The notes beneath the pieces are model-generated. The model did no database searches, was not told the DNA's origin, and saw only the letters and a list, made by a program, of their open reading frames with translations. From NCBI GenBank assembly GCA_947474455.1, contig CANJIL010000001.1, positions 1 to 64,000 of the forward strand: DNA of 64,000 nt. The letters run 5' to 3'. Shown here piece by piece: positions 21,398-39,332 of the stretch; position 1 is the first letter of the stretch, and each line of letters starts with the position of its first letter. The stretch comes from Hyphomonadaceae bacterium (GTDB taxonomy: Bacteria > Pseudomonadota > Alphaproteobacteria > Caulobacterales > Hyphomonadaceae). The position numbers were made by a program, and so were the translations under genes.

Positions 21398-22372
21398 ATG
21401 AAGAAGCTCGTATCTATTATTGCTTTGGCTGCCGCGCTTGGTGCGTGTGAGTCGATGGGAACGGCGTCTACGACGACCCCAGCGGCGACCCCTGTCGCCA
21501 CTGTCGCCACTGTCGCCCCTGTCGTCGCTGCGCCGGCGGCTCCTGCGCCTTGGAAAGCCAAGCGTGGGCCGGATGGAACACATCCGGACCTCAACGGCGT
21601 TTGGCAAGTGCTGAACACCGCCAACTATAACATCGAAGCGCACGCGGCTCAGGCCGCGATCCAGCTGCGCCCCGGACCTTATGTTCCGGTGCCCGCCGGT
21701 AACGTTGTCGGAATGGGCGCCATCGGCGCCGTTCCGGCTGGCGTCGGCATTGTGCAAGGTGACGGCAAGATCCCGTACACGGCTGATGCGCTTGCGATCC
21801 GTGACGAGAACCGTAAGGCGGCCGTCGAGAACGATCCGGAAGTTAAGTGCTATCTGCCGGGCGTCCCGCGCGCCAACTACATGGACAAACCGTTCCAGAT
21901 CTTCCAGTCGGACAAGGCGTTCTTCATCGCCTACGAATATGCCGGCGCCGTGCGGAACGTGTTCCTGGCCGACCCGGGCGAAGCCCCGGTCGACTCGTGG
22001 ATGGGTCAGTCCTTCGGCAAGTGGGAAGGCGACACGTTCGTGGTCGAAGTGACGGGCCTGCTGCCCGATACCTGGCTCGATCGTTCGGGCAACATCCATG
22101 GCTCCACGACTAAAGTCGTTGAGCGCTGGACGCCCACCTCGGACTATACGGTCCGTTACGAAGCCGAGATCACGGACGCGGAAGTTTACACCCGCCCCTG
22201 GAAGGTCGCCTTCAACCTGTACAAGCGCCAGGGTGAAGACGCTCAGCTGCAGCAGTTCAAGTGCGTCGAGTTCGTCGAAGAGATGATGTACGGCCACCTG
22301 CGCAAGAACCCGCTGCCGGGTCCGGCCGCTGATCGCGCCAAAGCTGAAAATTCGGAGCGCGGTAAGAACTAG
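21398..22372 (+). CDS. Secreted lipoprotein of unknown function with a WEGDT motif
   Basis: A 324-residue lipoprotein: signal peptide MKKLVSIIALAAALGAC with lipobox LGAC, then a low-complexity Ala/Thr/Val/Pro linker encoded by a tandem GTCGCCACT repeat (about 21495-21530). The domain has WQVLNTANYNIEAHAAQA, CYLPGVPRANYMDKPFQIFQ, GQSFGKWEGDTFVVEVTGL and EITDAEVYTRPWKVAFNLY. The KWEGDTFVVE and DAEVYTRPW motifs recur in the broken gene at 30253-31266 (SEGDTLAIET, DPQVYTAPW), so they belong to one superfamily, abundant in secretion-rich proteobacteria and acidobacteria with unknown function. Followed by a strong hairpin and then the DUF6152 gene. Confidence 0.75.
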   Translation: MKKLVSIIALAAALGACESMGTASTTTPAATPVATVATVAPVVAAPAAPAPWKAKRGPDGTHPDLNGVWQVLNTANYNIEAHAAQAAIQLRPGPYVPVPAGNVVGMGAIGAVPAGVGIVQGDGKIPYTADALAIRDENRKAAVENDPEVKCYLPGVPRANYMDKPFQIFQSDKAFFIAYEYAGAVRNVFLADPGEAPVDSWMGQSFGKWEGDTFVVEVTGLLPDTWLDRSGNIHGSTTKVVERWTPTSDYTVRYEAEITDAEVYTRPWKVAFNLYKRQGEDAQLQQFKCVEFVEEMMYGHLRKNPLPGPAADRAKAENSERGKN

Positions 22373-22715: not shown

Positions 22716-23252
22716 ATGAACAAGACCCGTATCGCGGTTGCAGGGTTCGCGCTGGCCGCTCTCACGACCATCGGTGCCGGCACTGCAGCCTACGCCCACC
22801 ACGCCTTCGCGGCGGAATTCGACGCTGACGCCCCTGTCCTGCTGAAGGGCAAGGTGGTTACGGTCGAGTGGGTTAACCCGCACACTTGGATCCACGTCAA
22901 CGTTCCGGACACGGATGGCAAAGGCAAAGCCAAAAAAGGCATGACCTTCAACTGGGCCATCGAAGGCGGCACGCCGAACACGCTGCTCCGCACCGGCATC
23001 AAGAAAGACTCTCTGAAGGTTGGTACGGAAGTCGTGGTTCGCGGCTACCAGTCGAAAGACGCCCTCTGCGACATCCACCCGAAAACGAAGAAGAAAACCT
23101 GCAAGGCCAACGGCCGTGACGTGACGTTCCCGAACGGCTGCAAACTGTTCGTCGGTTCGTCGGGCACGGGCGCTCCGAAAGACGGCTCGGATGCTGGTGA
23201 AGACAAGACAGCCACGCACGGCGCGAACTGCGCCGCGGCTGCTCCGGCCTAA
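22716..23252 (+). CDS. DUF6152 secreted protein
   Basis: A 178-residue secreted protein behind an excellent GGAGGAAG site. The signal peptide is MNKTRIAVAGFALAALTTIG ... AYA; the mature protein starts HHAFAAEFDADAPVLLKGKV, followed by VEWVNPHTWIHVNV, the hallmark DUF6152 sequence (small OB-like beta domain). Four cysteines in the C-terminal half (ALCDIH, KTCKANG, NGCKLF, ANCAAA) could form disulfides. Often encoded near proteins of the WEGDT superfamily, as here. Function unknown. A perfect terminator follows. Confidence 0.85.
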   Translation: MNKTRIAVAGFALAALTTIGAGTAAYAHHAFAAEFDADAPVLLKGKVVTVEWVNPHTWIHVNVPDTDGKGKAKKGMTFNWAIEGGTPNTLLRTGIKKDSLKVGTEVVVRGYQSKDALCDIHPKTKKKTCKANGRDVTFPNGCKLFVGSSGTGAPKDGSDAGEDKTATHGANCAAAAPA

Positions 23253-24776: not shown

Positions 24777-25732
24777 ATGGGAAGGTACTATTCGATTGAT
24801 CTTCGGGGACGGGCGGTTGCGGCTTATCGCGGCGGGGAGAGTTGCCGGGATGTCGGGGCCCGGTTCTGCATTGCGCCGTCGACGGTCGTGAAGTGGGCGA
24901 GCCTTGAGGATCGAACCGGCTCGCTTGAGCGAGGCAAACGCGGCGGTCACCGGCCGGTTTTGCTGACGACACAGCGGGACTGGATCGTCGCCCGACTGAA
25001 GGAGACCTCGCACCTGACCCTGCACCGGCTCGCTGACAAACTTGCCGCCCGGGGTGTAAGCGTTAGCCACGACACTGTCTTGCGCTTCCTGCGGGCCGAG
25101 GGCTCTGCTTCAAAAATAATGCTCTTCGGGCTTGAGCAGAAGCGGCCGGACATAGCGCGCAAACGCCAGCGCTGGCAGACGGCTTCAGCCGCGCCTCGAT
25201 TCGGAGCGGCTGGTGTTCATCGACGAAACCTGGATCAAGACGAACATGGCGCCGTTGCGCGGATGGGGCCGAAGGGCGAGCGTGTGAAGAACTACGCGCC
25301 GCACGGTCACTGGCAAACGCTCACCTTCGTGGCGCGCTGCGCTCCAGCGGGTTGACGGCGCCCTGCGTCTTTGACGGACCGATCAACGGCGAGGCCTGCA
25401 GCGCCTGGGTCGAGCAGCTACTCGTGCCCACGCTCCGGCCCGGCGACATCGTCGTGATGGACAATCTCGGCAGCCACAAAGGCTGCTGCATTCCCCGCAT
25501 GATCCGCGCGGCAAATGCGAAGCTGTGGTTCCTGCCAGCCTACAGCCCCGATCTCAATCCGATCGAACAAACCTTCTCCACAATCAAGCAGGCCATGCGC
25601 GCAGCACAGCAGCGAACCGTCGATGCGTCATGCGCGAAGCAGGAAAGATCGTTCAGGCGATCGGTACAGCTGAATGCCAAAACTACATCAAAGCCGCAGG
25701 CTATGTTTCCGCCAAGACATCAAACGCACTAG
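24777..25732 (+). mobile_element. Degenerate IS630-family transposase
   Basis: The N-terminal HTH part is readable from 24777 (MGRYYSIDLRGRAVAAYRGG, CIAPSTVVKWASLEDRTGS). The DDE domain is scattered across frames: ERLVFIDETWIKTNMAP (first Asp) at about 25205, GPKGERVKNYAPHGHW at about 25270, DIVVMDNLGSHKG (second Asp) and FLPAYSPDLNPIEQTFS (Asp/Glu region) at about 25450-25580, then MREAGKIVQAIGTAECQNYI in another frame. At least four frameshifts: about 25177, the GGGG at 25265-25268, about 25335 and about 25625. Three are repaired by adding one base. All catalytic blocks are still visible, so decay is recent or partly apparent. I could not define terminal inverted repeats. Confidence 0.85.
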
Positions 25733-26143: not shown

Positions 26144-26174
26144 AAAAGGCCCGCCGATTGCTCGGCAGGCCTTT
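26144..26174 (-). terminator. Terminator of the cytochrome/membrane-protein operon
   Basis: On the minus strand AAAGGCCTGCCGA pairs with TCGGCGGGCCTTTT around a GCAA tetraloop and ends in a T-run, about 20 bases beyond the stop at 26195. Confidence 0.8.
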
Positions 26175-26194: not shown

Positions 26195-27025
26195 TCAGCT
26201 TGCGAAGCCGATCCAGCGGCCGCCAGCCGCCACGGTGACCCAGGTGAGCACCGAGAACATGGCGGCGAGTTTCGCGAGCGGTGTCGAAGCTTCCGTTCGG
26301 CCCTGGTAGATTTCCCAGCCGAACAAACCCATTAACACCAATGCGCCGATTAACGTGATCATGCGCGAGATCTCGTCGTACGTCGGATCGTAGGTGTTGA
26401 AGCCGATGATCCAGTACATCAGGAACATGCCGACGAAGAGGAGGGCAAATGCCCCGACCGCAAGCCAGCGTACGCGTACGCCGTAGATGATCAGAATGGC
26501 GTAGCCAGCAGAGATCGGATGGAAGAGGCCCGGCGCGGATATGCCGTCTCCGCCCAGCACGCCGAGCGAGACCAGCCACAGCACGAAGGCTATGGCGCCG
26601 GCGATGAGCACGCCACTGGACGTTTTGCCCTCATTCTTCGCGATGGCGTTGGTGACGCCGAAGGAGAAGATGCAGGCGGCTGCCAGCGACACCATTTTTA
26701 CGAAGAACGGCACGGACTTGTAGAGCTTGTCCGAGTTCAGCATGCCGATGATGATGCCGGTGCCCAGAACGATCGCGAGACCCGCGATGAACCAAGGGCG
26801 CAGCGTCTTTTCCATCTGCGGAAGCGGCTCTTCCTTGATACCCGCGCCCATGAGGCGAAGGTTGAGAAGGAGCACCGCTCCGCCCATCAGCCCGAGGCCG
26901 ACAAGATGGAACGCGCCGAATGGTGCGTATATGTCCTGCAGCAGGGAGATTGGCCAGATCTTCGGCATGTTGGCGACGAAGTCGTCGGCCCCTGGAATGG
27001 CGCCAAAAATATTCTCGAAGGTCAT
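26195..27025 (-). CDS. Multi-pass membrane protein, second membrane subunit of the cytochrome operon
   Basis: A 276-residue membrane protein with about eight hydrophobic segments (FHLVGLGLMGGAVLLLNLRL; PWFIAGLAIVLGTGIIIGML; FFVKMVSLAAACIFSFGVT; VLIAGAIAFVLWLVSLGVLG; and four more). Start at 27025 follows GGAGG and lies three bases after the upstream stop. The segment GAFHLVGLGLMGGAVLLLNLRLMG parallels GTHVLTIIFFAGTIWMIDLRMMG in the upstream gene, so the two subunits share an N-terminal DUF6644-like unit, with a conserved membrane His that could bind haem b. No assigned function. Context points to a membrane redox complex; this is inference. Confidence 0.75.
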   Translation of the reverse strand: MTFENIFGAIPGADDFVANMPKIWPISLLQDIYAPFGAFHLVGLGLMGGAVLLLNLRLMGAGIKEEPLPQMEKTLRPWFIAGLAIVLGTGIIIGMLNSDKLYKSVPFFVKMVSLAAACIFSFGVTNAIAKNEGKTSSGVLIAGAIAFVLWLVSLGVLGGDGISAPGLFHPISAGYAILIIYGVRVRWLAVGAFALLFVGMFLMYWIIGFNTYDPTYDEISRMITLIGALVLMGLFGWEIYQGRTEASTPLAKLAAMFSVLTWVTVAAGGRWIGFAS

Positions 27026-27028
27026 GGA

Positions 27029-27955
27029 TCAGCCTCCTTGACCGGGTGCGGGTTGAGCAGGAGCGGCGGGTTCTTCAGGAGCGGCGTCATCCGCCGGGGC
27101 TTCGCCCTCTGCGGGCGCCTCCCCTTCGGTCGCGCCGTCATCCGGCACCGTCTCCTCGCCTTCGCTTCCTTCTGTTTCGAAGGCGAGGGCGGTGTCGCAT
27201 TCCTGCAGCACATACATCAGCGAGCCAGGAGTCGTGGTTTCCTTCTCGCAGTAGAACCAATCGTAGGCGATGAAGCGGCCAAAGATAATGACTAGGAACC
27301 AGGCCAGCATCGAAATCGCCCCAGACAGTTTAACGACCAGGGGCAGGCCGGGCAGGCGTTTGTGGATGAGCATGAAGAGCGACACGATGCCCCCGATGAA
27401 CAGGGCGATGCGCAGGAACGCCATCACCCAGACGTCGCCAGGGATCAGGAAGCTGACCAGCAGGATGAAGGACAATGCGATGAACGCGGCGAGCCACAGC
27501 GTTCTCTTCACCGGTAGCGGATCCGACATTGGCGGGATCACGTCCCAGGCGACATCGCTCTTCTGAACTCGGAAGTGGAACCAGAAGATGTTGATCGCGG
27601 CGGCGATTAGGAAAACCATTTTCAGGCGGAACCAGATGTTGTGGTAGTACATCAATGGATCACGGCCGATGAAAGCGATCACCCCGGTGATGATCATCAC
27701 CGCGAAGGCCGCCATGTTGATCGGAAGAACGCGGTCGCTGAGTTTCGACAGCGGCATGTTCTTGAACGCGATGCCCATCATGCGCAGGTCGATCATCCAG
27801 ATCGTGCCGGCAAAGAAGATGATCGTGAGCACGTGCGTGCCCTCGATGATATTCCACATGAAAAGCGACTCATGGAGCTGGTGCGACCAGGACTGTCCGT
27901 CCGCGGTAAAGCGCCCCAGATCCTCCCGGATCCAATTGACGAAATCATGGAACAA
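27029..27955 (-). CDS. Multi-pass membrane protein (DUF6644-like), first membrane subunit of the cytochrome operon
   Basis: About 308 residues. A TTG at 27955 with GGGGAGAAAAAGAC upstream is the likelier start (L/M-FHDFVNWIREDLGRF); an ATG at 27997 is also in frame. An amphipathic N-terminus is followed by LHESLFMWNIIEGTHVLTII (two His, haem-ligand candidates), DLRMMGIAF, and about seven helices. The C-terminal 60 residues are low-complexity Glu/Pro/Ala (repeats of EGEAPAEGEAPA), probably exposed outside the membrane. A pair CDTALAF/FYCEKE supplies two cysteines in the loop before the tail. Start and stop overlap closely with both neighbours in the operon. Confidence 0.72.
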   Translation of the reverse strand: MFHDFVNWIREDLGRFTADGQSWSHQLHESLFMWNIIEGTHVLTIIFFAGTIWMIDLRMMGIAFKNMPLSKLSDRVLPINMAAFAVMIITGVIAFIGRDPLMYYHNIWFRLKMVFLIAAAINIFWFHFRVQKSDVAWDVIPPMSDPLPVKRTLWLAAFIALSFILLVSFLIPGDVWVMAFLRIALFIGGIVSLFMLIHKRLPGLPLVVKLSGAISMLAWFLVIIFGRFIAYDWFYCEKETTTPGSLMYVLQECDTALAFETEGSEGEETVPDDGATEGEAPAEGEAPADDAAPEEPAAPAQPAPGQGG

Positions 27956-28032
27956 GTCTTTTTCTCCCCTGCCGGGACCCGTTGAGCGGGTTCCCATAGT
28001 TTTACTTTCCGTGTCCTATTTTTTGACTTCCG

Positions 28033-28641
28033 TTACTGGTTCTGCGGCGGCGCTGCCTGTTGCGGTGTTACGGGTGTTCCCGGCGGCGGCGGCGTCCGGT
28101 TGGGAAGTTGTGGCAGTTTCGCGTCCACGCCGGGGGCGTCGCCTTGAACATAGTGGTTATGGCAGGAGACGCAGGCCTCGTACATCTCGCCGCCAGCTTC
28201 GAAAAAGCCCTGCTTGTCCTTTGCAAGCGCCTTCGCCTGCGCATCCTTGGCGGCGGTGTAGAGCTGGTGGGACCAGTCAACCCAGCGCCGGTCATCATCC
28301 ATCGGCCGGCCCGGCAGCAGCAGGGAATTGGCAGCCTCAGCCAGCGTGAAGGCGGCGCTCTCGGCGGCGACCCAGCCGGCTTCATCCTGTGGGAACAATT
28401 CGTGCGTGCCGGTATCGTCGATCAACCAGCCCTGATTGTGCCAGACGCCGAAAGCGCTGAAGTCGATGACATGGGCCATCAGGTCTTTCAGGGTTGTGTC
28501 GGTCTTGAAATCGGCGAGCGTGGCGCCCCCCATGCCTTCGCCCGGGGTTGCACCTTCAGGCGCCTTGGAAACGGTTTCGGAGTCTGGTGAGCAGGCAGCC
28601 AACGCAAGCGCCATAGCAAGCGCTGTGGACAAGCGGATCAT
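28033..28641 (-). CDS. Monohaem cytochrome c lipoprotein
   Basis: A 202-residue lipoprotein starting at 28641 behind GGGGAAGTAGA. Lipobox ALAACSPD, Cys about residue 19. The C-terminal region carries one haem c site, MYEACVSCHNHYVQGD (CxxCH), preceded by a helical region; a haem motif close to the C-terminus after a helical domain resembles the cytochrome c'/c556 layout rather than class I. The Pro-rich tail (NRTPPPPGTPVTPQQ) follows. It is the first gene of an operon with two membrane proteins, so a tethered electron carrier for that complex is the simplest reading. The frame is open upstream to 28803 without support. Confidence 0.82.
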   Translation of the reverse strand: MIRLSTALAMALALAACSPDSETVSKAPEGATPGEGMGGATLADFKTDTTLKDLMAHVIDFSAFGVWHNQGWLIDDTGTHELFPQDEAGWVAAESAAFTLAEAANSLLLPGRPMDDDRRWVDWSHQLYTAAKDAQAKALAKDKQGFFEAGGEMYEACVSCHNHYVQGDAPGVDAKLPQLPNRTPPPPGTPVTPQQAAPPQNQ

Positions 28642-28910
28642 TCTACTTCCCCTTGGGCCAAGACGGAGCGGACGGCGTGTTCGCCTATTCCAAACCGACT
28701 TTGCATACAAACTCCACCCAGGCCCAGCGTAACCCGCTCTCCATCCGCGCACCATGGGCTTGGTGTCGCACATTTGCAGATTCAACGGTTTGATCACCGT
28801 CAACCCGTCAATTTGAGGCCGTTCCTACGCGTGGCGAAAGGCCGTAGAGGCAGGGAAACGTCGGCTTTTCGAAATTGCCGCGGGGACACGGCAGGGAGGG
28901 GACGATGGTG

Positions 28911-30185
28911 ATGCTGCTGACGTTGCGGCGCAGCATGATTGCCGCGTGTGCGGCAATCGGCGTTGCGCTGTCAGGGTGCCAGACGGCGCCGCAGATGGCC
29001 GATCCGGTGGCCTCTTCGCTCGTACGGGGCGATGCGGCGGCATTGGGGTTCGATCAGGCCAAGCTTGATGACATCCGCACGGCGCTGAACGCCGACGTCA
29101 TGAGCGGGAGAATTCCTGGCGCCTATCTGCTGATCGCGCGGCATGGACAGGTGGCGTTCGCACACGGGGTCGGCGTGCAGGGCCCGGGTCAGATCGCGCC
29201 GATGGGCGAAGAGACGATCTTCCGCATCTTCTCGATGACCAAGCCGGTCGTCGCGGTCACGGCCATAACGTTGGTCGAGGAGGGCAAGCTCGGCCTCGAC
29301 GATCCGGTATCAAAGTATCTGCCGGAGTTTGCCGACGTGAAGGTTTTGCAGCCGGACGGGTCGACGCGGCGGGCCGAGAAGCCCATGCTGGTGCGCCACC
29401 TAATGAGCCACACGGCCGGGCTGATCTATGGCTTCATCCAACCCAATACGCCGCTGGGCAAGATGTACGCAGCAGCGGGCGAAGGCGCGCCTGACATGTC
29501 GCCGCGCGAGTTTTCCAGGCTGATCGCGGGCTTGCCGCTGGCGGCGGAGCCGGGAACGGCGTGGAATTATTCGCGTGCGACCGACATTCTCGGCGCGCTT
29601 GTCGAGGTGGTTTCGGGCAAGCCGCTGGACATTGCGGTAAAGGAGCGCGTCACGGGTCCGTTGGGCATGACCGATACAGACTTTCTCCAGCCCGAGAGCA
29701 AGGCGACGCGCTTTGCTCAGCCCAAGCGGCCGGATCCACTCTATTTCGACTACACCGTGCCGGTGAAGTTCCTGCAAGGCGGCGGGGGGCTCTCGTCCAC
29801 GGTGGAAGACTATCTGCGCTTCGCGGAGATGCTGCGGAATGGCGGAGAGTATCGCGGCGTGCGGATCATCAGGAAGGAAACACTCGACCGGATGCGGACG
29901 CCCGAGACGAACGCGGACATACGCGGGCGGGGACTGTTCTTTCCAGCGATGGGGCGCCTGGCGAACTCGATGGAGTTCGGTCTTGGCCTTTCGCTGGTGA
30001 CGGATGACACGAAGCAGCGGCCGGGAAGCGGCACGTTCTCCTGGAATGGCATTGCAGGGACGGAGTTCTGGGTCGATCCGAAGAACGACATCGTGATGGT
30101 GTTCATGATCCAGGATCGCCAGCTGCTGGGCGAGTATCAGCGCAAGAGCCGGGCGTGGATCTATGATGCGCTGGTGAAGCCCTAG
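28911..30185 (+). CDS. Serine hydrolase, class C beta-lactamase family lipoprotein
   Basis: A 424-residue protein starting at ATG 28911 (nine bases after GGGAGGGG; ATGs at 28905 and 28875 are alternatives). Lipobox ALSGC. The penicillin-binding fold has the nucleophile motif IFSMTKPVVAVTA (SxxK), the tyrosine motif WNYSRATDILG (YSR in place of YxN) and a C-terminal GSGTFSWNGIAGTEFWVDP strand in place of KTG. Such proteins are mostly esterases or D-amino-peptidase relatives, rarely true beta-lactamases. Reading frame intact. Divergent from the cytochrome operon. Confidence 0.88.
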   Translation: MLLTLRRSMIAACAAIGVALSGCQTAPQMADPVASSLVRGDAAALGFDQAKLDDIRTALNADVMSGRIPGAYLLIARHGQVAFAHGVGVQGPGQIAPMGEETIFRIFSMTKPVVAVTAITLVEEGKLGLDDPVSKYLPEFADVKVLQPDGSTRRAEKPMLVRHLMSHTAGLIYGFIQPNTPLGKMYAAAGEGAPDMSPREFSRLIAGLPLAAEPGTAWNYSRATDILGALVEVVSGKPLDIAVKERVTGPLGMTDTDFLQPESKATRFAQPKRPDPLYFDYTVPVKFLQGGGGLSSTVEDYLRFAEMLRNGGEYRGVRIIRKETLDRMRTPETNADIRGRGLFFPAMGRLANSMEFGLGLSLVTDDTKQRPGSGTFSWNGIAGTEFWVDPKNDIVMVFMIQDRQLLGEYQRKSRAWIYDALVKP

Positions 30186-30252: not shown

Positions 30253-31266
30253 TCAGTTTTTCTTCGCGTCTTTCAGGTCGGCCATGCGTTGGCCCAGCAG
30301 GATGTTGGGAAGCGAGTAGTTGTGCTCGTGGCGGGGAGACGGGAACATGCCGGTGTCGGAAGCGTGGAAAGAGTATTAGGCGAGCCAGGGGGCTGTGTAG
30401 ACTTGGGGATCCTCGACGGTGAACTGGTAAAGCAGCTCGTCTTTCGTAAGGCGCGTGAAACGCTCGATCACCGTCGCATCCTGGTTCACTGGGAATTTCG
30501 AGAAGAGACCGCGGGTGGCTTCCCCTTGCCGCTGTCTGATCGTCTCGATGGCGAGCGTGTCGCCCTCCGAGCGGGCTATGGAATCTCCATACCAGGAAAT
30601 AGGCCCAGGCGGCGCATGCTCGGAAGAGAAGGGCACGATACGGGCTTCGTCGCCATTCTCGCCATGGATGACGACGTGATCGCTCGTCTGGATGAATTGC
30701 AAGCGATTGTACGAGATGGTCACGAAGGCTGGCGGCGCGCCGCTGAGCAGGAGGCAGCGCTCGCTGCTGGGTCGTTGCTCGTAGTCGTCCTTCTCGTCCT
30801 GTGAGACGGATGCGATCTTCCTTGCTTCGGGTGTCAAGGGAACCTTGCCGTCGGCCGGCAGGACGATGAGACGCGAACGCCGTTCGCCGCGAACCAGCGG
30901 CAGGCCGTCCGTGCCGCCGATGATCACATGTCCTTCGGGATCGATCTTGAACTCCGGGTTGGACATGATGCCTTTGACCATCGTGTCGACGAAGTTCTTC
31001 GCTTCGGCCTCCGATACGATGAGGGTCGCCGCCAACGGGCTCGCCTCCAAGACGGGAAAGAAGTTCGTGGCCCAGACTGTGTGCTGGAAATCGGGGTGAC
31101 CATCCCGCGTGCGGGGCAGGCCGGGTTCGGCCTGCAGCGACGTTGGCGTGTAGACCGGAGGTCGTGTTTGCGTTGCGCGCGCGGATTGCGCTGTCTGGGC
31201 GAAGGCCAGCGGCCCGAGAAGGAAGGCGCAAGAGGCTGTCACGAGGAGGCGGGGAACGTGTTGCAT
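30253..31266 (-). pseudogene. Secreted WEGDT-superfamily protein interrupted by TAA
   Basis: The start at 31266 (GGGGA upstream) gives a cleavable signal peptide (MQHVPRLLVTASCAFLLGPL ... AFA). The domain includes GHPDFQHTVWATNFFPVLEA, ISYNRLQFIQTSDHVVIHGE, SEGDTLAIETIRQ, VIERFTRLTKDELLYQFTVE and DPQVYTAPWLA, matching the lipoprotein at 21398 in its second half. TAA at 30376-30378 interrupts it, but the same frame continues YSFHASDTGMFPSPRHEHNY ... LLGQRMADLKDAKKN to TGA at 30253-30255, 41 codons later. The tail looks genuine, so the stop is a recent lesion, a read-through site or an error. A shortened product would lack only the C-terminal 40 residues. Confidence 0.72.
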
Positions 31267-36218: not shown

Positions 36219-39200
36219 ATGTCGCATCCGGGACCTGGCTGGGGCAGCCAGCCGTCAAGCATCCGCGTTCTGCTTCTGGCATCGACCGCATTGGTTTTCG
36301 CTGGCGGCGCGTTCGCGCAGGCAGTTCCCAGCAGCGCGCCACCGGAGGAAAGCCGCGACGTTGTTGTGGTCGTCTGCTCCCAGATCGTCGGCGCCCAGCC
36401 GACCGAGGCCTCGCCTGTAACGGTCATCGGTAGGGAAAAAATCGATGCCATCGCCGCCGCGTCGGGCGATGATCTATTTCGTTCGATTCCACAGCTTGGC
36501 GACGTTTCGTTTGGCGCCGGCGGCGTCGCCAACAGCGTCGGCGGAACCAACGCCGCTCGTGGCGATACCGCTTCGATCAACCTTCGCGCGCTGGGGACTG
36601 GCAATACGCTGGTTTTGATGAACGGCCGCCGGATGGTGAACCATCCGGGGACGCAGGCGGAAAACCTCGTGCCGGTGGTAACGGTAAACACCAATGCTAT
36701 TCCCGCGTCTGGCGTGGGCCGAGTCGAAGTTCTGCTCGATGGCGCATCGGCCATCTACGGTGCAGACGCCGTGGCGGGTGTGGTCAACACCGTGCTGAAA
36801 TCCGATTTTGAAGGGCTGACGACCGATTTGACCTATGGCGGCGAGGATGGTGTCGAAGCGACGGAACTCTCCGCTTCGATCGAGTTCGGCGTCAATTCGG
36901 ATGACGATCGCACCAACCTGTCGATTTTCGCCTCCTACTTTGGCCGCGATCCGACGTGGGCTTCGGAGCGCCCTTTTACCGCAAATTCCGACCTGCGATC
37001 GCTATTGCCGGCATCATGGGCCGGGAATGCCAATGCCTCGGCGGGATTCAACAACACGACAATTACGTCGGCTTGGGGCATCTTCGATCAATACAATGAT
37101 CCGACGCCGCCAACAGCGATCCGGCAAGGCTCGACGGCGCTGACAAACGCAGCCGGCCAGTTCCATGTCCAGCCAAACACGCTCGCCGGTTGTCTGACCC
37201 AGTTGCCGGGCGGCGTTTGCATCGACGACACATCCACGCGCGATCAAGAGTTGCGCTACAACGGCAATGACGCGACGACGGTCACGAATGGCGTTGACCG
37301 CGTTAATCTGTTTGGCTTCTTCAATCACGAATTCGATGGCGGCCTCGAGTTGTTCGCCGAGACCGGAGTCTATCTGGCGGATTCGGTGGGGTATCGCGAA
37401 GTGGCGCCGATGCTTGGCGCCGTGCCGATCGTGATTCCTGCGAGCAACTACTACAATCCGTTTGGTCCTGTCGGTTCCCCCAATCGCCTGCCCAATCTGG
37501 ATATTCCTGCGGCCGGCCTCGCCCTCGCCCTCGGTTCGCGAACCGGCACGGCGGCGCATCGCCCGATCGATGCTGGTCCGCGCCGCACGGAAGTTGAAAA
37601 CCTTTTCTCTCGCGCGCTGCTCGGACTGCGTGGAGACGCGTGGGAATGGAATTGGGAAAGCGCGGTGCTCTAAATGTCCGCTGAAACTGAAGACAAAGAA
37701 AATCGCGTTTCAAATACGCGTTTTCTGGAAGCGCTCTCATGGTCCACGCCCGATGCGTACAATCCCTTCAACGGCGGATGCGCGGGTGACCTTGACGCCG
37801 CGGATTGCACGCCGAGCTCTCAGGCCGCGATCGAATACATCACAGTACAGAGCACGCGGCGCAGCAGGACATCGCTCGCATCCTGGGACCTTAAGATTTC
37901 ACGGCTGGACTTGCTGACGAATTGGGCTGGCGATGTCGGAGCAGCCATCGGCGTTGAAGTGCGACGCGAAACTTTCTTCGACGACCGCGATCCGCGGCAG
38001 GATGGTACGGTCATGTTCACTGACCGGATCAGCGGCCTGACGACGAACGATCTGATGGGCAACAATCCTTCGCTGGACGCGCGCGGTAGCCGCATGGTGC
38101 AGTCCGGATATGTCGAATTGCAGGTACCGTTGGTGTCACGGGAAATGGCGATCCTGTTTGTCCAAAAAGTGGACATGCAGTTGGCGGCGCGACACGAACA
38201 TTTTGACACTTTCGGCTCAGTAACCAAACCGAAAATCGCGCTATCGTGGCGGCCTTTCGATTTCATGCTGGTGCGCTCGGCGTGGTCGGAGGGATTTCGG
38301 GCGCCCAACCTGCAGCAGCAATTCGAGAGCAGCCTGCAACGCTCCAACAACCGGACTGACTATATCTTCTGCGAAGCTGACGTGCGGGCGGGCCGTATCA
38401 CCCGTGCGCAATTTACCACAAGCTGTTCCACCCGGCCGGCGCAGCCGGTGATCTCCAACCGCCAAGGGTCCGAAGACCTGCAACCGGAAGAATCGACGAA
38501 CCTGACTTACGGCGTGGTGCTCGAAAGCACATTCCTGCCGGAAGAGTATGGTCGCATCAGTTTCACTGCAGACTGGTGGCGCGTCGAACAGGACAATGTG
38601 GTCGGCATCATTGGCGACGACAACGCGATACTACTTGATTATGTGCTTCGTCTGCAGGGCGTGGCCGGCGGCAATCCGCTGGTGATACGCAACACACCGG
38701 ATGCGCAGGACGTCCTCGATTTTCAGGGCACAGGCCTTACGGCGGTCGGCGATATTGTTTCGGTCACCGACAACTATCGCAATCTAGACAAGCGGGCAGT
38801 GCAGGGCTGGGATTTTGGGTTCTACTATGATCTGGAAAATACGCCCTTCGGCGATTTTGCGTTTAGAGCGAACGCCGCGTTGCTCGACAAGTTTTTTCAG
38901 GACCCGTCCGCAGAGGGACGCCAGATTCTAGCGGCTGGTGCGGCCGGTCTTATCGGATAACAGCTTCGGCCGGCCGGACAAACCGATCTGATTCGCGATT
39001 TTGGCAGGCCTGAGTGGCGCTACACCTCATCGCTGACATGGCGGAAAGAGGCATGGAGCGGCGGCTGGTTCACGTCCTATGTTGGCGATGTCTATGACGA
39101 CTTCAATCTGCTGAACAACCAGCCTTGGATCATCGACGAATATCAGACTCACAATCTCTACGTGCAGTACGAATTCGGACACGGCACTGACAAACCAGTG

Positions 39201-39332
39201 CGACTTCGGATCGGCGCGCGGAACATCACCAATGAGACGCCGCCTTTGGCAGATGGAACTTTCGGCTATCTTGGCGAGCTGCATAGCCCGCAAGGCCGCT
39301 TCCTGTATGTCAATGCGCGCAAGACATTCTAA
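36219..39332 (+). pseudogene. TonB-dependent outer-membrane receptor with two in-frame stops
   Basis: Start at 36219 behind GAGGGGAG; signal peptide about MSHPGPGWGSQPSSIRVLLL ... AFAQA. The plug has LRALGTGNTLVLMNGRRMVN and VEVLLDGASAIYGADAVAGV, typical of large receptors of this group. TAA at 37671-37673 follows WNWESAVL; the same frame resumes at once with MSAETEDKENRVSNTRFLEA and the barrel (SEGFRAPNLQQQFESSL, VQGWDFGFYYDLENTPFGDF). A second TAA at 38958-38960 follows AAGAAGLIG; the same frame continues QLRPAGQTDLIRDFGRPEWR to a normal terminal F (FLYVNARKTF) before TAA at 39330. Total about 1037 codons, a normal length. The expected TonB box area reads VVVVVCSQIVG rather than a usual VVVTGS-type sequence. 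Non-functional if translated conventionally. Confidence 0.85.

Follow-up and report, generated by a model that had tools for sequence, protein, structure and literature searches.

Co-inheritance of a tethered cytochrome with DUF6644-type membrane proteins assigned by profile comparison to the HemJ/CopD superfamily

Two kinds of described system stand closest to the genes treated here. One is HemJ, which is given as a protoporphyrinogen oxidase in an excerpt of PMC11662147 and is called a b-type haem protein in the title of a reference cited there. The other is the CopC-CopD type of copper system, of which YcnJ from Bacillus subtilis needs both H24 of its CopC domain and H295 of its membrane CopD domain (excerpt of PMC13344008). 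A further point of reference is the histidine brace of copper proteins, in which an N-terminal His takes part through both its amino group and its side chain, together with another His (excerpt of PMC10952591). The locus analysed here lies in a window of 64,000 nucleotides (the whole stretch under study: Hyphomonadaceae bacterium, contig CANJIL010000001.1, positions 1 to 64,000), and comprises the genes of a lipoprotein cytochrome c (CYT) and of two membrane proteins (MA and MB), accompanied by a gene of the DUF6152 family. Their homology, invariant residues, co-inheritance and neighbourhood were established by computation. What is new here is a membrane system, placed in the HemJ/CopD superfamily by its profile, that comes with a cytochrome, and this suggests that the cell envelope has a so far undescribed system for handling electrons or metal. 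Neither DUF6644, the family of MB, nor DUF6152, nor their accessions, are mentioned in the open-access literature searched, outside which most subscription papers fall.

CYT and the MA-MB pair form a conserved, co-inherited and uncharacterised unit. Among 101 genomes of the family, the three genes occur in this order and at the same locus in 27 (all 15 of their own genus and 12 others), and strong matches to CYT alone (E 1.7e-47 or better) are found in exactly these 27 genomes and in none of the other 74, so that the association expected by a previous, sequence-only reading of this DNA, which had proposed a possible membrane redox complex, holds in 27 of 27. The one marginal and partial CYT match outside them is in genome G099 (E 7.5e-4), and MA relatives as such are found in 31 genomes. 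The distribution is patchy even within a single genus, with the unit in G034, G064 and G066 and not, for instance, in G003, G013, G020, G026 and G030. The most constant partner of DUF6644 is nonetheless the DUF6152 protein, which the sequence-only reading overlooked: it is encoded in 32 of the 101 family genomes, covering all 31 with a DUF6644 protein, and in 299 genomes of the phylum, 22 of which carry DUF6644 and 31 DUF6152, every one of the 22 has both. The distance between the two matches is below 200 bases in 14 of these 22 and within 3.6 kb in 20, the exceptions being G339 (31 kb) and G357 (different contigs). The corresponding chance figures (1.7e-26 for DUF6644 with DUF6152 in the phylum, 3.8e-25 for the pair with CYT in the family) ignore kinship and should thus be read as far less extreme. 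According to record titles, the two DUF families occur in Alpha- and Gammaproteobacteria and in Acidobacteria.

Both membrane proteins had been described as DUF6644-like, which applies directly to MB (70.6 bits against PF20349, with a Pfam gathering cut-off of 27) and not to MA on its own (20.7 bits), yet a short MA relative, from locus L058, does pass the cut-off (28.1), and profile comparison with a DUF6644 set gives probabilities of 100 for MA and 99.5 for MB, this set of 26 rows including two of MA type (L113 and L115). MA and MB are also homologous to each other (probability 98.9, P 1.9e-17). For comparisons at a greater distance, DUF6644, HemJ and CopD sequences were gathered from genus and phylum genomes, resulting in alignments of 26 of 28 DUF6644 loci (two above 260 aa were left out), 42 of 43 HemJ loci (after a length and hydrophobicity filter) and 23 CopD sequences, the latter without seven loci at HemJ positions and with two frames under 50 aa. 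In hhalign, DUF6644 matches HemJ with a probability of 91.6 (P 8.3e-7), placing the helix-1 His on His, followed by the Arg after it, and the helix-3 Lys on Lys. DUF6644 matches CopD with a probability of 53, or 67 when MA sequences are added, again with His on His, and HemJ against CopD reaches 50.5 in the same setting; these two families are related, because the CopD model itself matches HemJ loci. Reversed alignments gave 0.1 for HemJ and 0.3 for CopD, and an unrelated HupE-like membrane family, the single other one with at least eight members yielded by the control search, gave 0.1-0.5. A pooled MA/MB/DUF6644 cluster reaches 65.9 against HemJ, and a smaller comparison with 11 same-genus HemJ sequences (from 14 loci, three of which lacked the motif used for extraction) gives P 0.099 for MA and 0.019 for MB. 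By these profiles DUF6644 belongs in the HemJ/CopD superfamily, and MA and MB are superfamily relatives of HemJ, not HemJs. That MA could be HemJ itself was ruled out, as the window MA and MB have no match to the Pfam HemJ model (PF03653), the L058 relative, whose weak Pfam matches are to UPF0093/HemJ and DUF2214, stays below its cut-off (17.8 bits, E 0.004, against 34.2), and the genome encodes a separate, normal HemJ. The CopD model (PF05425) matched nothing in the search of the same genome nor among the window proteins, the similarity being a remote one between profiles, and a scan of the genome contigs with MB alone as query returned no relatives.

The His and Lys that align with those of HemJ are also invariant within each subunit. 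After merging duplicates and dropping MA sequences outside about 150-360 aa (also for the tree below), and with MA numbered from ATG 27997, H55, R72, K126 and R241 are invariant in 76 of 76 distinct MA sequences, H141 is kept in 74, and C250 and C267 in 74 each (two gaps). MB keeps H40 and K110 in 83 of 83 distinct sequences, R57 in 82 and R270 in 81, and the DUF6644 proteins of the phylum have a His, a Lys and two Arg that never change (26 of 26 each). The His/Lys pair of HemJ, in which both residues are essential, has its counterpart in H55/K126 of MA and H40/K110 of MB. From the two membrane His that the sequence-only reading had picked out in MA, this leaves H55, in the EGTH motif; H42 (LHESLF) is kept in just 14 of 76 sequences, sits in a short helix that precedes the first of the long helices, and was ruled out as a haem ligand. 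The Glu/Pro-rich tail of MA and the FHLVG...LNLRLMG stretch of MB are present as described. The MA model (predicted local distance difference test score, pLDDT, 83.9) has six membrane-length helices, two of which (163-182 and 189-214) form an insert not present in the short forms, and H55, K126, R241 and the two cysteines would lie on the periplasmic side, judging the model by eye with the positive-inside rule. No clear solved homologue of MA was found (best E 0.043), and fold searches with it gave a best E of 1.5 in Foldseek and a best Z of 10.6 in VIA-align, the latter within the quoted range for helical bundles.

The DUF6152 protein of the window matches PF19649 only, apart from a weak match to DUF5666, and has no CopC match in Pfam. 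All 41 full-length DUF6152 sequences of the 77 loci compared below (one further row, cut at a contig end, is not counted) have an N-terminus that looks by eye like a signal peptide, with a small residue right before two consecutive His, and an NPH motif follows 26 residues after these in 40 of them and 25 in the remaining one; H28, H29, N54, P55 and H56 do not vary among 37 sequences. The mature protein would accordingly be predicted to begin His-His, and the sequence prerequisites for a histidine brace are present in 41 of 41 full-length proteins, on sequence alone and with an N-terminus modelled at low confidence. The model itself has an oligonucleotide/oligosaccharide-binding (OB) fold, with matches to PriB and SSB (best Z 8.6, root-mean-square deviation 2.6 over 83 residues). 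Elsewhere in the genome, on contig 86 (L310:4454-5445), two tandem DUF6152 genes lie at the contig end, both with HHGW after a signal-like stretch.

CYT was described as a lipoprotein with a single C-terminal CxxCH, and so it appears, with a lipobox-type N-terminus (by eye) and the motif at C157, C160 and H161. Its profile matches cytochrome c' chains (8rkp and 5b3i, E 3e-4) over the C-terminal stretch, which we take to be the equivalent of the fourth helix of cytochrome c', and CYT scores 17.2 bits against PF01322, below the cut-off of 26.5, a relative reaching 23.9. The CxxCH is present in 38 of 39 sequences, the remaining one having a gap, and M55 in all 39. When the first helix of a class II cytochrome has a Met that never varies, a six-coordinate His/Met haem is suggested. 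CYT is read as an electron carrier because M55 is invariant, which suggests six-coordination by H161 and M55 and not a gas sensor. Four CYT paralogues lie elsewhere in the genome (L306, L307, L308 and L309), that of L306 running a few bases into a beta-lactamase-family fragment.

CYT, MA and MB are real genes, intact as had been noted, and under purifying selection: their reading frames are open, and the ratio of non-synonymous to synonymous substitutions (dN/dS) against the relatives L229 and L230 is 0.09-0.15 for CYT, 0.18-0.19 for MA and 0.21-0.22 for MB. The tight spacing of the three minus-strand genes was likewise confirmed (Table 1), with three bases between MA and MB. The true start of MA is probably TTG 27955, as homologue calls begin with TTG or GTG at LFHDF, LLHDF or VLHEF, so the listed ATG 27997 would be 14 codons too early; the candidate TTG is preceded by AGGGGAG and would leave 77 bases to CYT. 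The single terminator claimed for the group corresponds to a hairpin with a T run after MB (-26.1 kcal/mol, z -6.4), which is not among the three sites listed by a consensus scan, against 2.9 expected by chance. It was also fair to speak of a region of decay. On the plus strand, a TonB-receptor-like frame (36219-39332; by eye, without a family search) has two internal stops and seems a degrading copy, and a transposase-like gene adjoining the end of MB (24777-25732) is split in two (24777-25355, with an HTH_32 match, and 25352-25732). A defence system was considered and discarded, CYT, MA, MB and DUF6152 having no PADLOC match at E 0.01.

Table 1. Features of the cytochrome-DUF6644 locus and its surroundings; positions refer to the window.
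Feature	Position	Strand	Description
CYT	28033-28641	-	Lipoprotein with predicted class II (cytochrome c'-type) monohaem cytochrome c; CxxCH C157-H161; M55 invariant
MA	27029-27955 (listed open reading frame 27029-27997)	-	DUF6644-type membrane protein
MB	26195-27025	-	DUF6644 membrane protein; second, weaker DUF6644 match at the C-terminus
Terminator-type hairpin 3' of MB	26145-26174	-	Ends in a T run
DUF6152	22716-23252	+	Predicted secreted OB-fold protein; mature form would begin HHAF; NPH motif invariant; near-obligate partner of DUF6644 across genomes
GVW1	21398-22372	+	Probably secreted; no Pfam family; conserved DUF6152 neighbour (39/77 loci)
Serine beta-lactamase-family hydrolase	28905-30185	+	Divergently oriented neighbour of CYT within its own genus
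GVW2	30376-31266	-	Probably secreted; no Pfam family; recurs in related clusters

The neighbourhood was compared over 77 named loci, which overlap with the family set in their source genomes and are not independent of it; their genes come from a home-made gene-calling script, which may overlook small genes and misplace starts, and many loci are short contigs, beyond which a seemingly absent partner may lie. In 65 of them MA and MB occur together, as neighbours. CYT is present in 37 and DUF6152 in 40, with both in 30, and the MA-MB pair accompanies CYT in 35 of its 37 loci. GVW1, GVW2, a beta-lactamase-family hydrolase and a resistance-nodulation-division (RND) pump recur around the unit, and a HupE/UreJ-family gene is found in some clusters. 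The GVW proteins (those of the window and of L062 and L066) have signal-like N-termini and no Pfam match, and up to five tandem GVW2 copies occur per cluster. No known oxidoreductase subunit had been seen beside the three genes, which is true of this cluster, where no pyrroloquinoline quinone (PQQ) enzyme is encoded with CYT, but not of all its relatives: in 8 of the 77 loci the gene of a beta-propeller protein carrying a cytochrome c domain at its N-terminus adjoins CYT on the same strand, such a gene lies 4.4-4.9 kb beyond MB in the same-genus loci L040-L042, and the genome itself has a close relative (66% identity) on contig 28, beside a GVW2 gene. All 12 propeller-cytochrome sequences aligned (those passing a length filter out of 16 rows) keep a Cys-Cys pair, a mark of PQQ alcohol dehydrogenases, and the copy in the same genome, with 128 bits, is well below the NCBIfam cut-off of 480.

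The reading that we put forward, tentatively and short of calling it probable, is an envelope redox module with a HemJ-like site in each of MA and MB, with which CYT exchanges electrons, DUF6152 being their central partner in the periplasm. We infer its cofactors, the formation of a complex and the flow of electrons as follows. The core would consist of a secreted OB-fold DUF6152 protein, binding a metal, and of a DUF6644 membrane protein with a four-helix core, present here as the diverged pair of MA and MB. Each membrane subunit would have a single site, made of the invariant His and Lys and the two conserved Arg, read as facing the periplasm, and would bind haem b as HemJ is reported to. 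CYT, as a lipoprotein class II cytochrome, would exchange electrons with this site in its own lineage, and in several relatives the partner would be the quinoprotein-like dehydrogenase with its fused cytochrome c domain. Electrons could thus move between dehydrogenase, CYT, MA/MB haem and either quinone or the DUF6152 metal site, in either direction, the end point being left free. The sequence-only reading, with a tethered cytochrome and haem b in two membrane subunits, agrees with this in what the co-inheritance (27 of 27) and the invariant His, aligned with that of HemJ in the broad DUF6644 profile, speak for, and loses the ligand it had seen in H42.

Several results weigh against this module. 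The assignment of haem goes back to a single reference title, whereas a 2020 review (PMC7242693, in the excerpt available) states that nobody had yet purified HemJ and that the cofactors of the enzyme were unknown. The HemJ link itself rests on the broad DUF6644 family, since against the 42 HemJ sequences MA alone gives a probability of 28 (P 6e-4) and MB alone of 3.6 (P 0.012), and several haem-b membrane proteins are in the MA fold list, none of them above background. In the DUF6152 model, with its low-confidence N-terminus, no metal site is visible. PqqC is found in none of the 101 family genomes, while the same model, run as a positive control, finds it in 48 of the 299 phylum genomes; PQQ would therefore be required from elsewhere if the quinoprotein is active. 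Moreover, the occurrence of the membrane genes without the cytochrome, which the sequence-only reading had named as a point against itself, is in part what is observed. Where the pair is adjacent (65 loci), the DNA examined has no CYT in 30 cases, and 30 of the 77 loci have neither CYT nor DUF6152, so neither is needed at the locus; 18 of these 30 are from Phenylobacterium, by record titles. In the same genome, contig 5 carries a second MA-MB pair (L056:13875-15472), with no CYT or DUF6152 over the 18.7 kb retrieved, and this pair groups with L245 on a side branch of the MA tree that is well supported. On that tree, 7 changes account for the distribution of CYT and 12 for that of DUF6152, and loci with neither partner need 4, compared with 20.0 for shuffled labels; therefore, a standalone MA-MB subfamily exists. 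Two-gene DUF6152-DUF6644 units without an adjacent cytochrome occur (e.g., L163, L165 and L168), hence the core function is independent of CYT.

Is this, then, a module for electrons, or one for metal? The main rival to the redox module, possible if on the whole doubtful, is CopC-CopD-like metal handling, in which DUF6152 would bind Cu(II) through its N-terminal His, as in a histidine brace, and the His of NPH, and would pass it to the membrane His of MA/MB for import, the cytochrome merely altering the redox state of the metal. The putative HH start, the almost fixed distance to NPH and the invariance of H28, H29 and H56 are what such a function would call for, YcnJ provides a precedent for a secreted and a membrane His that are both needed, and the DUF6644-CopD match aligns His on His. 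The DUF6152-DUF6644 core pair also occurs alone, and the HupE/UreJ-family gene of some clusters fits in as well. However, the model of DUF6152 shows an OB fold and not the fold of CopC, the shared Lys suits HemJ and not a known copper site, and a tight linkage to a cytochrome, plus a quinoprotein in relatives, would be odd for plain import.

The resemblance to HemJ can also be taken at face value, with MA and MB as oxidoreductases that oxidise a small, membrane-soluble molecule and CYT as the acceptor of the electrons. HemJ, an oxidase of protoporphyrinogen, is the closest profile relative found, and the nearby hydrolases and GVW proteins suggest a catabolic cluster; nevertheless, the separate HemJ of the genome implies that haem synthesis is not the function, and the constant companion DUF6152 is left unexplained, which makes this proposal rather unlikely. 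It is very improbable that CYT is a cytochrome c'-type sensor of nitric oxide or stress, with the membrane proteins serving to signal for it or to anchor it: its C-terminal profile is of that type, but the invariant M55 suggests an electron carrier, relatives link it to a quinoprotein, and no signalling gene is among the recurrent neighbours. Finally, many Phenylobacterium MA-MB pairs stand without CYT or DUF6152, as chance neighbours with unrelated roles might, and yet this is hardly credible for genes that share the same 27 of 101 genomes, including their patchy presence in one genus, and keep the same order across genera.

A synthesis of the redox and metal-handling proposals can be conceived, unlikely as it is in our estimate, in which DUF6152 would be an OB-fold histidine-brace copper protein, DUF6644 the haem-b partner that reduces or loads it, and the tethered cytochrome c the source or sink of electrons. 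It would amount to a third arrangement beside CopC-CopD and HemJ, one membrane fold joining haem, copper and cytochrome chemistry. If it is true that DUF6152 binds copper by its N-terminal His on an OB fold, it would place a histidine brace on an unexpected fold, next to the HemJ/CopD superfamily. In any case, two Pfam families of unknown function gain a testable role, and the superfamily link names the key residues: H55, K126 and R241 of MA, H40 and K110 of MB, and the first two His of the putative mature DUF6152.

Among the known systems, the class II cytochromes (c' and c556) share with CYT the C-terminal CxxCH in a similar stretch, and differ from it in that CYT is a lipoprotein with an invariant Met55 and that the match spans only about its last third. 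The quinohaemoprotein alcohol dehydrogenase complexes resemble what is seen in relatives, a propeller and cytochrome c protein beside a cytochrome c, except that the cytochrome domain is N-terminal in these relatives and that no PqqC was found in the family genomes. With CopC/CopD of the YcnJ type, the locus has in common a secreted partner with a putative His start and a membrane partner of the same superfamily with a conserved His, which does not imply that MA H55 and YcnJ H295 are equivalent; unlike CopC, DUF6152 has an OB fold in its model and lacks a CopC match in Pfam, and a cytochrome accompanies the pair. HemJ (UPF0093, PF03653) shares with DUF6644, by profile, the helix-1 His, the Arg after it and the helix-3 Lys, whereas DUF6644-type proteins have a GR(F/W/L)I(A/G)(Y/F) end of their own, come here as MA-MB pairs, fall below the HemJ cut-off of Pfam and coexist with a true HemJ in the genome. 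The nearest families remain DUF6644 and DUF6152 themselves, both of unknown function in Pfam, of which MB and its neighbour in the window are members.

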